Part shown: positions 13,635 through 18,322 of the stretch, piece after piece
How positions within the stretch are numbered: position 1 is the stretch's first letter
Layout of the letters: each line of letters starts with the position of its first letter
Assembly (NCBI RefSeq): GCF_025717555.1
Contig: NZ_JAJIRP010000003.1
Coordinates: 310,001 to 374,000 of the forward strand
Length of the DNA stretch: 64,000 nucleotides
Source of the DNA: Paucibacter sp. B2R-40
Lineage (GTDB): Bacteria > Pseudomonadota > Gammaproteobacteria > Burkholderiales > Burkholderiaceae_C
Direction: 5' to 3'
Notes under the pieces: model-generated
Database searches by the model: none
What the model was told of the DNA's origin: nothing
What the model saw: the letters and a program-made list of their open reading frames with translations, nothing else
Translations under genes and position numbers: made by a program

Positions 13635-14297
13635 ATGAAAATGCCGGCGTATGTTTGCTGGGCCTTGGGCTGCGGCCTGTGGGTCACGGCCGCTTGCGGA
13701 CAAACCGCCGGTACGGTCAGTTTCAATGGCAGTTTGGGTACCAAGGCCGCGCTGCTGATGATAGACGGCGAGGCGCGCACATTGACGGTAGGCAGCACCC
13801 TACGCGGCGTACGCCTGCTCTCGGTCGATGACAACCGGGCCGAGATCGAACTGGGCGGGCGCCGCCAGACGCTGTTGATGGGAGCCACGCCGGGACGCAT
13901 CGGCGACAACGCGCCGCCCCCAAACGGTGGGCGAAAGATCATTTTGAGCGCCGGCTCCGGCGGCCACTTCACCAGCATCGGCAGTATCAACGGCCAAAGC
14001 ACGCAATTCTTGATCGACACCGGGGCCACCGCCATCTCGATCAGCCAGACCGAGGCCGAACGCATGGGCCTGAATTTTTCGGCCGGGCGACGCATCATGA
14101 CGCAAACCGCCAACGGCGTGGTGCCCGCCCACATGATGCAGCTGAACAGCGTGCGCATCGGCGATGTCGAAGTCCGCAATGTCGAGGCCATCGTCATTCC
14201 GGGTCAGATGAGCCATGTCTTGCTGGGCAATAGCTTTTTGACCCGTTTTCAGATGCAAAGACATAACGATGTGCTGACGCTGGATTTGCGCTACTAA
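13635..14297 (+). CDS. Retropepsin-like aspartic protease, exported
   Basis: A 220-residue protein. Residues 1-22 look like a signal sequence; Cys21 in TAACGQ makes a lipoprotein possible, although the lipobox is poor. Residues 25-85 are a beta-rich N-terminal domain, and residues 105-220 are a clan AA retropepsin fold with the single catalytic motif FLIDTGATA (Asp128) and a C-terminal HVLLGNSFL. One such motif means the enzyme must dimerise to form an active site. It matches the TIGR02281-type proteins of proteobacteria, whose substrates are mostly unknown. It lies 6 nt after yajQ. Confidence 0.82.
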   Translation: MKMPAYVCWALGCGLWVTAACGQTAGTVSFNGSLGTKAALLMIDGEARTLTVGSTLRGVRLLSVDDNRAEIELGGRRQTLLMGATPGRIGDNAPPPNGGRKIILSAGSGGHFTSIGSINGQSTQFLIDTGATAISISQTEAERMGLNFSAGRRIMTQTANGVVPAHMMQLNSVRIGDVEVRNVEAIVIPGQMSHVLLGNSFLTRFQMQRHNDVLTLDLRY

Positions 14298-14392: not shown

Positions 14393-17212
14393 ATGCGCGC
14401 GAAAAAAACCATGACCCAAAGCCCTTCAGTTCTTCAGCCACTCCTGGGCCTGATGTTGGCCGGCGTGATGTCGCTGGCCCAGGCAACGCCAGAAAAGGCC
14501 GCTAAATTCTATGAAGACGCTTTGTTGCGCTATGAAAAAGGCGACCTTGACGGCGCCACCGTTCAACTCAAGAACACCATTCAGCAGGACCAGAAAATGC
14601 TGGCCGCGCATTTGCTGCTTGGCAAGGTCTTGCTCAAAAACGGTGAGCTGAAAGGCGCCGAGGCTGCCTTTGAAGAAGCATTGAAGCAAGGCGTCAATCG
14701 CAGCGAAGTCGCCGTGCCGCTGGGGCAGCTGTATTTGCAGCTGGGTGAGCGCAAGAAGCTGCTGGATGAATTGACGCTGACCGGCATGCCGCAGTCCATC
14801 CATGTCGACATCTTGACCTTGCGCGGATCGGCCTACGCCATGTCCGGCAACATGGCAATGGCCAGCAAGAGTTACGCCGAGGCCAAGCAACTCAACCCTA
14901 ACTCGGCCACACCGCTGATTGCGGAGGCCCCCCTGCTCTTGCGCATGGGCGAGCCCGACAAGGCTCGCGCGATGGCAGCCAGGGCGGTAGAACTGGCACC
15001 GACCAATGCTGCTGCCTGGTACACGCAGGGTGTGATCCTGCAGTCCTTGCAAGAGGCCAAGGGAGCGCTGGTCGCGCAAGAGCGAGCCTTGGCACTGAAT
15101 CCTAAACAGGTTGATGCGCGCATCGCCCACGCCTCGCTCTTGATTGGTCTGGGGCGGGAGAAGGAGGCCGAAAAGGACTTGGCGCTGCTGGTCGAGCAAG
15201 AGCAAGAAGATCCTCGCGCCTACTACTTGACCGGCCTGCTGGCCAGCCGCAAGGGGGACGACGCCGCAGCCAAAACCGCCTTTGGCGCAGCAGTTGGCCT
15301 GGTCGATGCCATTCCTCCCGAAATCATTGCCGGCAATGAGCCCTTGCTGATGGCCGGCGCCTTGTCACATCGCGCGCTAGGCAATGCCGAAAAGGCGCAG
15401 TTCTACCTGGAGACATTGCTGACGTCGAACAGCAAGCATTACAACGCCATGGTGATGCTGGCCGGTGTCTATATCGACAAGCGCGACTACAACCGCGCCG
15501 CGCCACTGCTCGAGAATGCGCAACGCGCCAAGCCCGATGACGCGCAAGTGATGTATCTGATGGGCTCACTGCAAATGGCCCGCAAGAGATATCAGTTGGC
15601 CAGTGAGTTGTTTGAAAAGGCTGCCGCCAAAAGCGGCACCGCCTCCGCCGTGCGTGAATTGGGCTTCAGCCAGCTCAGTTTGGGGCAGGACAAGGCCGGC
15701 ATGGCCAATCTGGAGAAGGCCTTTGCGGCCAAACCTGGCGACCCTCGCGCCGGTGTTCAATTGACGATGACATACCTGGCTCAGGGCAATAACGCCAAAG
15801 CCATGCAGACCGCACAGGCCATCGTCAAGAAGGATCCCGACAACCTGACCATGCTCAATTTCTTGGGCAATATCAAAGGCCGCACCGGCGATAAAAAGGG
15901 TGCCCGCGAGGCGTTTCAACAGGCACTCACTAAAGACCCCAACTTCAGGCCGGCTGCCATCAATCTGAGTTGGCTGGACATGGAGGAATTGCGCTTTGAC
16001 GAGGCTCGCAGCCGCCTGAGCAAAATGGTGGTGGGCGCAAAAGACGACCCCGATGTGTTGTTTCAACTGGGTGTGCTGGAACTGCGCGCCAAGCGCTCAG
16101 CCGAAGCGATGACTTTCCTGCAAAAGTCAGATGAACTGCAGCGTACCGACCCGCGTGCCGGACTGCTGATGATTGAATTGCTGAGCGGGCAACAGCAAAA
16201 CGACAAGGCGCTGAGCTTGGCCAAAGCCTTGGCGGCGAAATATTCCACCTTGCTGACGCCTCAACTGACGCTGAGTCGCCTCTATTTGAACGCCGGAGAC
16301 GGCAATAATGCACGCCTCACTCTGCAAGCCGCCACCCGCATTGCCGAATTCAATCCGGCGCAGCAAGTGCAGATTGGCCGCATGAACCTGATGGCGGGCG
16401 GCATAGACGGCGCGGCCTACAACGTTCAAAAGGCCTTGCAGGCGCAGCCGAACTATTTAGAGGCCTTGGGTCTGCAGGTCGAAGTTGAAGCCAGGCGCGG
16501 CGATGTGGCGCGAGTCGACGCGGCGTTAAAGACGCTTAACTCAGCTCACCCTGGAGCAAGCTTGAGCTTGATGGCTACGGCGCATGTGGCGATGTCTCGC
16601 GGCCAATACCAGGCGGCGCTCAGCGGCTACCGAGCCGTGATGGCGAAGGAGCCCAGCACCGGCAACGCGATCCTGATCACACAGGCGCAAATTGCCGCCG
16701 GCGAGGTCGAAAAGGCCTTGAGCGGCCTGGAGGAATGGGCCAAAAAGAACCCCAAGGACCGCAATGCACTCAAGGCACTGGCGCAGGTGCAACTACAAGC
16801 CGGTAAGAATGAGGCCGCACGCAAGAGTTTTGTGCAGGTCTTGGCGATCGAACCAAATGATGCGGCCACCTTGATCTATTACGCCGCGCTGCTGCAGCGA
16901 CTCGGCGACCCGGCCGCCGTTGACGCGGCCGAGAAAGCCGTCAAGTTCGCGCCAGGCAATGCCGAGGCAACCGACAACCTGGGCTGGATCTTGGTGCAGC
17001 GCGGCAATGTGGACGCCGGCCTGCGTCATTTGCGCGAAGCGAGGTTGCGCAACCCCAACTCGGGCGACATCCGTTTTCACCTCGCCTATGCGCTGACCAA
17101 GTCCGGCCGCAAGATTGAGGCCAAGGAAGAGTTGGCGGCGGCCTCCTCTGTGCCCAACAAGGTGCGGCCGAGCGCACAACTGGAAAAGCTGAAAACGGAG
17201 TTGGGCCTGTAA
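14393..17212 (+). CDS. prsT: PrsT-type TPR repeat lipoprotein/periplasmic protein of the XrtA/PEP-CTERM system
   Basis: A 939-residue protein with a signal sequence (LLGLMLAGVMSLAQA) and then tetratricopeptide repeats throughout; the first reads ATPEKAAKFYEDALLRYEKG, followed by ATVQLKNTIQQDQKMLAAHL and EAAFEEALKQGVNRSEV. Length, repeat content and the N-terminal wording match the PrsT family, which normally accompanies exosortase A (XrtA) and exopolysaccharide genes. No exosortase, prsK or prsR gene is in this window, so if those exist they are elsewhere. A PEP-CTERM protein gene follows after about 185 nt. A second ATG six codons in is a possible start. Confidence 0.85.
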   Translation: MRAKKTMTQSPSVLQPLLGLMLAGVMSLAQATPEKAAKFYEDALLRYEKGDLDGATVQLKNTIQQDQKMLAAHLLLGKVLLKNGELKGAEAAFEEALKQGVNRSEVAVPLGQLYLQLGERKKLLDELTLTGMPQSIHVDILTLRGSAYAMSGNMAMASKSYAEAKQLNPNSATPLIAEAPLLLRMGEPDKARAMAARAVELAPTNAAAWYTQGVILQSLQEAKGALVAQERALALNPKQVDARIAHASLLIGLGREKEAEKDLALLVEQEQEDPRAYYLTGLLASRKGDDAAAKTAFGAAVGLVDAIPPEIIAGNEPLLMAGALSHRALGNAEKAQFYLETLLTSNSKHYNAMVMLAGVYIDKRDYNRAAPLLENAQRAKPDDAQVMYLMGSLQMARKRYQLASELFEKAAAKSGTASAVRELGFSQLSLGQDKAGMANLEKAFAAKPGDPRAGVQLTMTYLAQGNNAKAMQTAQAIVKKDPDNLTMLNFLGNIKGRTGDKKGAREAFQQALTKDPNFRPAAINLSWLDMEELRFDEARSRLSKMVVGAKDDPDVLFQLGVLELRAKRSAEAMTFLQKSDELQRTDPRAGLLMIELLSGQQQNDKALSLAKALAAKYSTLLTPQLTLSRLYLNAGDGNNARLTLQAATRIAEFNPAQQVQIGRMNLMAGGIDGAAYNVQKALQAQPNYLEALGLQVEVEARRGDVARVDAALKTLNSAHPGASLSLMATAHVAMSRGQYQAALSGYRAVMAKEPSTGNAILITQAQIAAGEVEKALSGLEEWAKKNPKDRNALKALAQVQLQAGKNEAARKSFVQVLAIEPNDAATLIYYAALLQRLGDPAAVDAAEKAVKFAPGNAEATDNLGWILVQRGNVDAGLRHLREARLRNPNSGDIRFHLAYALTKSGRKIEAKEELAAASSVPNKVRPSAQLEKLKTELGL

Positions 17213-17433
17213 ATAATGCCAAGAGTTCGTGCAAAAGCTACGTGAAGGCCTCTAAGGGCGGCGCTTGATGGGTTCAAGGTCGCTAAAGTGCCGACAGGCG
17301 CACTCGTTCAGCGCATGCATCACCCCACGCGACGCATTACCCCCCGATTCGCGGGATTGCTCGCACAGCTGAAATCGTTAGGATCGCAGCCAACAACATG
17401 AACACCAGAATTTCCGGACACAAGGCAAACACC

Positions 17434-18261
17434 ATGACAAACACATCGCAGCTTAGCAAGATCGTGAATCAACTCACTGCGTGTACTGCCATCGCATTGC
17501 TCGGTCTTGCCACTGGTGCTGCCCATGCCACGGTTGAGTTGACCAAGACCGGCGCAAACTTATTTGACGGCCGTACGGTGCAATTTGGTTCTGTAGTTCC
17601 GGGTGGTCAATCAACCATGGGCGCCTGGAAGGTCAACGAAACCAATGGGGCGCAGAATTTTTGGGTCTATTGCCTTGACCCCTTGCACACAAGCATTTCG
17701 CCGGACACCTATGACAAGGTGAGCTTGAGCAATTTCGTTACTGCGGCCGCAGCAGACGCAGGCTATACCAAGCTGTTCGCCAGTACGCCTTATCAAGCGA
17801 ATGGCATCGTGAACTTATACGATGACTCAACAAATGCGACAACAGCGAAAGTGCTGAACAATTTGACGTCGCTTTATCAGCATGCTTATGCCGACAGCCT
17901 GACCGACGCCAAGAAATCTGCCGCCTTTCAATATGCAATTTGGGAAATTGAAGGCGATGGGGCTGGCGCCTATTCAAGGACCACTGGCAGCTTTAAATAC
18001 ACCGGCACAGACAGCGCTGACGGAGTTTTCACTGCCACGGTTGATAAATATTTAGCCGGTTTGAACACTGGCACCTGGGCAAACGGCCTCACTACGGTGA
18101 CCAACTACACCTTCAATGTCTACAACCCCAACCCATCGGGCAGTGGCCAAGCGGTGATGTCTGCGACCGCAGTTCCTGAGCCAGGCTCCTTGGCGCTCGC
18201 TGGCTTGGCGCTGTTCGGCATGGTCTACACCCGTCGCCAGAGCAAGGCAAAACAGCTCTGA
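17434..18261 (+). CDS. PEP-CTERM sorted surface protein with thioester-like motifs
   Basis: A 275-residue exported protein. A signal peptide (residues 1-32, ending GAAHA) is followed by a beta-rich domain and a C-terminal PEP-CTERM signal: AVPEPGSLALAGL, a hydrophobic segment, then RRQ. Exosortase cuts at the PEP motif. The domain contains WVYCLDP (Cys80) and AAFQYAIWEIEG (Gln166), the spacing and wording of the Cys-Gln pair that forms an internal thioester in TED/TQXA adhesin domains. The start at 17434 has AAGG 8 nt upstream; an ATG at 17398 is an alternative that adds 12 residues. The next genes on the strand are unrelated. Function unknown; covalent surface attachment is a hypothesis. Confidence 0.85.
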   Translation: MTNTSQLSKIVNQLTACTAIALLGLATGAAHATVELTKTGANLFDGRTVQFGSVVPGGQSTMGAWKVNETNGAQNFWVYCLDPLHTSISPDTYDKVSLSNFVTAAAADAGYTKLFASTPYQANGIVNLYDDSTNATTAKVLNNLTSLYQHAYADSLTDAKKSAAFQYAIWEIEGDGAGAYSRTTGSFKYTGTDSADGVFTATVDKYLAGLNTGTWANGLTTVTNYTFNVYNPNPSGSGQAVMSATAVPEPGSLALAGLALFGMVYTRRQSKAKQL

Positions 18262-18293
18262 GCCAGAATAGATCTTCGGTTTTTTGAATAGCG

Positions 18294-18322
18294 AAAGCGG
18301 CCCTTGTGGCCGCTTTTTTGTT
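18294..18322 (+). terminator. Rho-independent terminator after the PEP-CTERM gene
   Basis: A perfect 9-bp stem, AAAGCGGCC and GGCCGCTTT, with loop CTTGT is followed by a run of T residues, about 30 nt beyond the stop codon. It ends the PEP-CTERM transcript before the acyl-CoA dehydrogenase genes. Confidence 0.85.

Follow-up and report, generated by a model that had tools for sequence, protein, structure and literature searches.

Thioester domains (TEDs) of Gram-positive bacteria act as a "chemical harpoon," bonding covalently to their surroundings. In the solved TEDs, according to the available text of the structural reports, the bond links the Cys of a [YFL]C motif to a Gln located on the last beta strand (PMC4450167, PMC6194298, PMC4282584), with Cys109-Gln261 being the proven pair in SfbI (PMC4450167) and Cys426-Gln575 the thioester pair of Cpa (PMC4282584). 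The same portions of text describe a helix with the motif TQxx-phi-W, whose Gln and Trp are dispensable for the bond and whose Gln hydrogen-bonds the Cys backbone (PMC4450167, PMC6194298). A 2015 study examined twelve TEDs by mass spectrometry and, in its available text, reports each to be ~17 Da lighter (PMC4450167), while class II TEDs are defined, in the accessible part of their description, by a beta-sandwich insertion of ~75 residues (PMC6194298). An early survey found no TEDs in Gram-negative bacteria. To our knowledge, most PEP-CTERM proteins have no known function.

A full-text literature search, with most subscription journals outside its coverage, returned no match for "thioester domain" together with "PEP-CTERM," and none among the matches listed was a paper joining TEDs with PEP-CTERM proteins or exosortases. 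Two surveys that cover TEDs or isopeptide domains (PMC9210967, PMC12617251) carry no mention of PEP-CTERM in the main text available, PMC8416519 concerns, as far as its available text goes, an unrelated thioester domain of the alpha-2-macroglobulin type, and the available text of PMC1569441 names PrsT with no occurrence of "thioester." A TED in an exosortase-sorted Gram-negative setting is not described in the literature searched. Here, we analyze a gene in a 64,000-nucleotide stretch of the genome of Paucibacter sp. B2R-40 (the window), the product of which we consider likely to be a minimal, stalkless TED that is exported by Sec, sorted by an exosortase, and furnished with a Cys80-Gln239 thioester for covalent attachment, perhaps in the extracellular matrix.

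Results

The gene, its product, and its upstream neighbor comprise the following features.

14393..17212, + strand: prsT, encoding a PEP-CTERM-system TPR protein, conserved upstream partner (TIGR02917 484.5 bits, cut-off 312.2; synteny)
17434..18261, + strand: TED/PEP-CTERM protein gene, 275 aa (open frame; Pfam PEP-CTERM 28.5 bits, TED 21.7 bits)
17434..17526, + strand: probable signal peptide, Sec type, approximately residues 1-31 (judged by eye)
17521..18174, + strand: modelled mature domain, 218 aa, predicted TED fold (AF2 pLDDT 87.4, pTM 0.90; ten TED entries at Z 8.8-11.3, next 3.5)
17671..17673, + strand: Cys80, predicted thioester Cys of the [YFL]C motif (conservation; aligned to SfbI Cys109)
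17929..17931, + strand: Gln166 of the FQxAIW helix, probably structural (model helix 130-145; aligned to the SfbI TQNAIW helix; role from solved TEDs)
18148..18150, + strand: Gln239, predicted thioester-forming Gln (136/136 homologues; SfbI Gln261 alignment; register 13/14)
18169..18237, + strand: PEP-CTERM sorting signal, VPEP being residues 247-250 (PF07589 28.5 bits; NCBIfam TIGR02595 17.7 bits, cut-off 16)
18293..18317, + strand: terminator-like hairpin and T run 3' of the gene (hairpin search, weak alone)

The ATG at 17434 was taken as the start, with a second in-frame ATG 12 codons upstream, at 17398. Translation of the frame places WVYCLDP (Cys80), FQYAIWEI (Gln166, 86 residues further on), and VPEP at residue 247 exactly where a preliminary description of this DNA had put them, and the PEP-CTERM ending that it proposed is borne out by a Pfam score over the cut-off of 20.7 bits. 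The Cys-Gln signature on which that description was built is likewise real as far as its two motifs go, but a third conserved motif, that of Gln239 shortly before the sorting signal, had been overlooked. Cys80 is the sole Cys of the mature part. With a signal peptide recognized by eye, the PF07589 match, and exosortases encoded in the same genome, the protein has the marks of an exosortase substrate, for which processing is predicted. The Pfam TED score falls just under its cut-off of 22 bits, and a six-frame search of the genome gave 22.7 bits, just above it. A search for a sigma-54 promoter with a pattern allowing up to two mismatches found none on the + strand in the prsT-TED interval; across the whole window, the pattern gave 85 matches against 117 expected from shuffles. 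Terminator-like hairpins in the region number two against 2.2 expected from shuffles.

As predicted by AF2, the window domain has the TED fold, a beta barrel with a three-helix subdomain. The top ten entries in VIA-align were all TEDs, led by 6fx6 at Z 11.3 (rmsd 3.4, 152 residues aligned) and followed by 5a0g (10.8), 5a0n (10.7), 6fwv (10.6), 6fwy (10.2), 5a0l (10.0), and the Cpa entries (8.8-9.3), with the next entry, an unrelated one, at 3.5. Foldseek matches for this model were weak, the best being 6fx6 at E 0.037 and none reaching 0.001 or below. For L031, a paralog from the same genome modelled with a pLDDT of 95.0, eleven TED entries scored Z 12.4-9.4 in VIA with the next at 3.0, and the first 27 Foldseek chains were TEDs, at a best E of 2.1e-4. 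The last helix of the window model (165-183) is followed by just two strands (196-203 and 212-217), and the seven-stranded beta-sandwich that class II TEDs insert before the Gln strand was not found in either model. These fold matches, and the presence of both exosortase A and exosortase B in this genome, support the earlier proposal of a TED-type protein in a Gram-negative background with exosortase sorting.

The fold also bears on the reading that the motifs arose by chance in an unrelated PEP-CTERM protein, or that this is a floc protein of the PepA kind. The floc_PepA model (NF033554), considered as a family for the protein and rejected, does match over nearly its whole length, but the score of 29.3 bits is far below the cut-off of 80, no NCBIfam model matches the domain stripped of signal and tail at E 0.01, and the nine loci inspected, of 13 PepA loci above the cut-off, all lack the Cys/helix/Gln set by eye. 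With TEDs as the top fold matches, such a reading would already be refuted unless the models are wrong, and we give it next to no weight. Judged from the fetched loci, in which 138 distinct proteins match the family profile, the Cys/Gln motif set exceeds what chance would produce. No NCBIfam family was matched by more than one of the 73 members of the alignment behind our A2 profile, and no TQXA model was among the NCBIfam matches.

Which Gln would pair with Cys80 was addressed by alignment. A profile of 25 relatives (A1) matched the SfbI TED 5a0l over positions 36-202 of 205 at a modest E of 0.0035, placing the family Cys on chain residue 49 and the C-terminal Gln on residue 201, which with an offset of 60 correspond to Cys109 and Gln261, and placing Gln166 on the helix Gln of SfbI (TQNAIW). 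Besides SfbI, A1 returned one weak and unrelated PDB match (nsp7, E 1); A2 matched the helix region of 6fx6 alone, not its full length, at E 1; and neither a third profile (A3) nor a single-sequence search with the window protein had a match among PDB sequences. The register of the last strand was checked by comparing the window and L031 models with entries of four TED proteins, assuming a gapless last strand and using aligned ranges only. In 13 of 14 comparisons (7 of the 10 TED entries for the window model and 7 of the 11 for L031), the end residues in VIA aligned the C-terminal Gln with the thioester Gln reported for the protein concerned (Gln267 in CpTIE, Gln247 in PnTIE, Gln575 in Cpa, Gln261 in SfbI), and the remaining comparison was off by one. 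Entries 6fx6, 6fwv, and 6fwy, the numbering of which differs from that published, and 4c0z, the residue numbers of which could not be matched to published ones, were left out; the class II entries, counted by hand from construct starts with tags and gaps unaccounted for, would be off by 2 to 4 residues and weigh neither for nor against. The sequence has the Cys of a [YFL]C-phi-zeta motif, a last-strand Gln in register with the known thioester Gln, and FQYAIW as its TQxx-phi-W helix motif. The residue before Gln239 is Gly, whereas the published phi-Q motif has a hydrophobic residue there, so that GQAVM of the window protein fits loosely; the YQDLL paralogs conform to it.

On this alignment, the reactive pair should be Cys80-Gln239, with Gln166 a structural residue of the helix. 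The preliminary description had instead assigned the thioester to Cys80 and Gln166, a pairing for which it can be said that both residues are conserved and, by analogy, probably lie close in space. That assignment has to be given up as highly improbable, since the solved TEDs bond through the last-strand Gln and can dispense with the helix Gln, and it is Gln239, not Gln166, that aligns with Gln261 of SfbI. A model with Cys80 facing Gln166 would not discriminate between the two pairings because, in known TEDs, the helix Gln is hydrogen-bonded to the backbone of the Cys.

For conservation, two incomplete proteins (L148, which ends with its contig, and L172, without an N-terminal part in frame) were dropped from the 138, leaving 136. 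An equivalent of Gln239 is present in all 136 (the aligner placed it in 134, and in L155 and L174 it was read by eye), those of Gln166 and Trp170 are each present in all 136, the helix motif being preset for members from the 80-locus scan, and that of Cys80 is present in 133. Because the collection used profiles carrying these motifs, the conservation is partly built in; among the 66 homologues represented by a sequence from outside the motif scan, which also found some of them, the Cys and both Gln residues are present in every one. In a column ranking, none outside the helix motif stood above the Cys or the C-terminal Gln (L155 and L174 being scored against the Gln). Exactly one Cys lies between a point 33 residues before the Cys and the PEP motif in 118 of 125 proteins (the motif pattern missed 11 of the 136), so those proteins have no internal disulfide in the mature part. 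Random loss of the Cys or Gln among homologues, which the preliminary description had named as grounds for refutation, is not seen in these counts, which were obtained with profiles carrying the residues concerned.

Three homologues lack the Cys, namely, L072:5758-6330 from Roseateles cellulosilyticus, with Ser, and L092:5752-6351 and L092:8000-8596 from Phycisphaerales, with Ala and Thr. These TED-like PEP-CTERM proteins hold both Gln residues; co-loss of the Cys and Gln239 was not seen among the homologues, and retention of Gln239 is therefore possible without a thioester. As natural thioester-dead versions, they would be of use as controls. They also lend something to the reading that the TED fold is kept as a scaffold, with Cys80 and Gln239 conserved for packing and the thioester absent or hydrolyzed and unused, and that the protein is an ordinary matrix protein acting non-covalently, as does the conservation of the non-bonding Gln166 and Trp170 equally with Gln239. 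We regard that reading as improbable, given a Cys that is single in most mature parts, retained in 133 of 136 homologues, and in register with a known pair, and given the mass loss of ~17 Da in all twelve TEDs tested (PMC4450167, available text).

Relatives of the protein, to judge by profile matches, occur in many Gram-negative bacteria. Close orthologs over the greater part of the protein were found in 12 of 18 genus genomes, that of the window included (loci L003-L014; 59 genomes searched), and its own genome encodes two further relatives, L001 on contig C8 and L031 on contig C4. A scan of genome contigs yielded 90 relatives for a 25-row alignment, of which 80 loci were kept; its pattern, AAFQxA[IVL]WE, preset the helix motif, with the Cys and the C-terminal Gln not preset. 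The record titles of the 80 kept loci span Alpha-, Beta-, and Gammaproteobacteria and Planctomycetota, with taxa recorded as Roseateles/Paucibacter/Pelomonas, Rhodoferax, Aquabacterium, Methyloversatilis, Gallionella, Rhodobacteraceae, Acetobacteraceae, Marinobacter, Phycisphaerales, and a Rokuibacteriota MAG. In whole-genome searches, the A2 profile (73 rows) was positive in 14 of 18 genus genomes, 28 of 399 genomes at the order level (E 1e-4), and 7 of 397 at the phylum level (E 1e-5), and the TED-type domain is patchy across order and phylum. The Pfam TED model found 4 of the 397 phylum genomes, the window's own being the sole overlap with the seven A2-positive genomes; it matched 43 of the 73 A2 members at E 0.05 or better, with three other families matching one member each, and scored 25.5 bits for L001 and 17.3 bits for the C4 paralog. 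Plasmid records had no match to the window protein or L031.

At all 14 loci of the window subtype in the 80-locus scan (L036-L049), the prsT match ends no more than ~550 bases before the TED match. Within the genus, a close prsT and the window subtype occur together in 12 of the 18 genomes, adjacent in each, and both are missing from the other 6. The downstream acyl-CoA dehydrogenase gene is found at just 5 of the 14 loci, and it is therefore the prsT-TED pair that is conserved, not the region. No prsT was found near the remaining 66 TED loci at E 1e-10, some of these loci being short, and no TED was found within the flanks covered at the 30 order-level prsT loci examined from a longer list. 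Among weaker prsT matches in the genus, L227 and L228 show no TED and L226 adjoins a different PEP-CTERM protein, while L018, on another contig of L227's genome (G014), has in succession the end of a TPR gene, a PEP-CTERM gene of non-TED type, and an acyl-CoA dehydrogenase gene. Both L226 (G010) and L018 thus have a non-TED PEP-CTERM gene beside a diverged prsT-like gene, at the expected place of the TED gene, and the place beside prsT looks as if it were a cargo slot. The tagged peptide printed in the available text of the prsT/PEP-CTERM literature bears no likeness, by eye, to the window protein.

Just upstream of prsT, at 13635-14297 of the window, lies a gene for a retropepsin-like aspartyl protease family protein (PF13975, 95.6 bits). 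Three further PrsT-family candidates were scored in the same genome (C8:55808-58531, C48:239259-241976, and C48:67648-70335; TIGR02917 637-676 bits), and all outscore the window prsT, pointing to several PrsT systems in one genome. Exosortase A (XrtA, 351 bits) is encoded in a PEP-CTERM/polysaccharide locus of this genome, and exosortase B (XrtB, 350 bits) and EpsI are encoded in another locus, which lies ~7 kb from the TED paralog on C8.

Other TED-linked loci were also observed. On contig C4, L213:3032-5836 encodes a PEP-CTERM protein carrying a domain that is putatively adhesive and ice-binding-like (PF20597, 141 bits, the copy from this genome alone being scored) near the YQDLL-type TED paralog. 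Relatives of it lie near YQDLL-type paralogs at the genus loci L016, L023, L025-L028, and L030 (tblastn), a third, small PEP-CTERM gene is present as well at L023, L027, L028, and L031, and these loci may represent a matrix-adhesion module. In other Pseudomonadota, Pfam TED scored 56.6, 27.2, and 24.7 bits in open frames of 2052, 944, and 1564 aa (L033, L034, and L035), which may encode long TED adhesins of Gram-negative bacteria built on a different plan.

Discussion

The evidence presented here is consistent with the following mechanism. The minimal TED would be exported by Sec and passed to the exosortase system. Cys80, where the third strand ends, would condense with Gln239, just before the last strand, ammonia being lost to leave a reactive internal thioester, with Gln166 and Trp170 on the central helix holding the site. 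An amine or hydroxyl nucleophile of an outside molecule would then attack the thioester, resulting in covalent attachment, and exosortase processing would leave the reactive site against its anchor, with no stalk. The steps are not equally secure. It is very probable that the Cys80-Gln239 bond forms, and reaction of the thioester with an outside target is fairly probable; the extracellular matrix as that target is a tentative choice, held at slightly less than even odds.

The choice of target draws on the architecture of the family. The Cys-to-Gln distance ranges from 103 to 193 residues (median 120 in 134 proteins; 159 in the window protein), and the distance from the Gln to the PEP motif is 4-21 residues (median 8 in the same number of proteins; eight in the window protein), so the domain ends at the sorting signal, leaving no stalk. 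The TIE architecture of an N-terminal TED, an isopeptide or ester stalk, and LPXTG was not found; there is a single domain with the PEP-CTERM signal directly after it. With no stalk and the site at its anchor, capture of matrix (a polysaccharide or matrix protein in flocs or biofilm) fits better than that of a distant host. A working TED directed at a host or prey surface or another cell, instead of its own matrix, is an unlikely variant of the same reading. It has precedents in the host protein fibrinogen as the target of SfbI (PMC4450167, PMC6194298) and in the class II TED adhesin required for efficient conjugation in Bacillus subtilis (PMC8092201), as described in the available text of these papers, but the short gap between Gln and signal, the link to prsT, the exosortase loci with polysaccharide genes, and records of relatives that are, in our judgment, mostly environmental all speak against it.

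A Gram-negative family with the predicted TED fold, the bonding pair, and exosortase signals would give one class of PEP-CTERM proteins a concrete chemical function, and one part of floc or biofilm cohesion becomes directly testable. More broadly, Gram-negative bacteria may own widespread covalent surface adhesins in the form of stalkless, exosortase-delivered TEDs, with the thioester crosslinking the cell surface to its own matrix. We put this forward as a speculative generalization, somewhat less probable than not. If true, the PEP-CTERM/exosortase system would be the Gram-negative counterpart of the LPXTG/sortase system in the chemistry of its cargo as well, with PrsT serving TED cargo.

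Compared with known systems, the locus resembles that of the PepA floc proteins (NF033554) and the prsT-pepA locus of Aquincola (PMC9850573) in having a PEP-CTERM protein beside prsT, although the PEP-CTERM gene is upstream of prsT in Aquincola (PMC9850573) and downstream in the window, and the PepA proteins of the nine loci inspected lack the TED motifs of the window family. The class II TEDs (SaTIE 6FX6, BaTIE 6FWV, EfmTIE86 6FWY) are matched in fold at Z 10.2-12.4, but the window model shows no beta-sandwich insertion. The likeness to the class I TEDs (SfbI 5A0L, CpTIE 5A0G, PnTIE 5A0N, Cpa 2XID/4BUG) extends to the fold of the whole domain, the [YF]C motif, the TQxx-phi-W-like helix, the C-terminal strand Gln in register, and the lack of a beta-sandwich insert, and the window protein appears built like these harpoons of Gram-positive bacteria. 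Unlike them, it comes from a Gram-negative bacterium, its domain makes up nearly the entire mature protein, and in its family the stalk domain and LPXTG give way to a PEP-CTERM signal 4-21 residues past the predicted bonding Gln.
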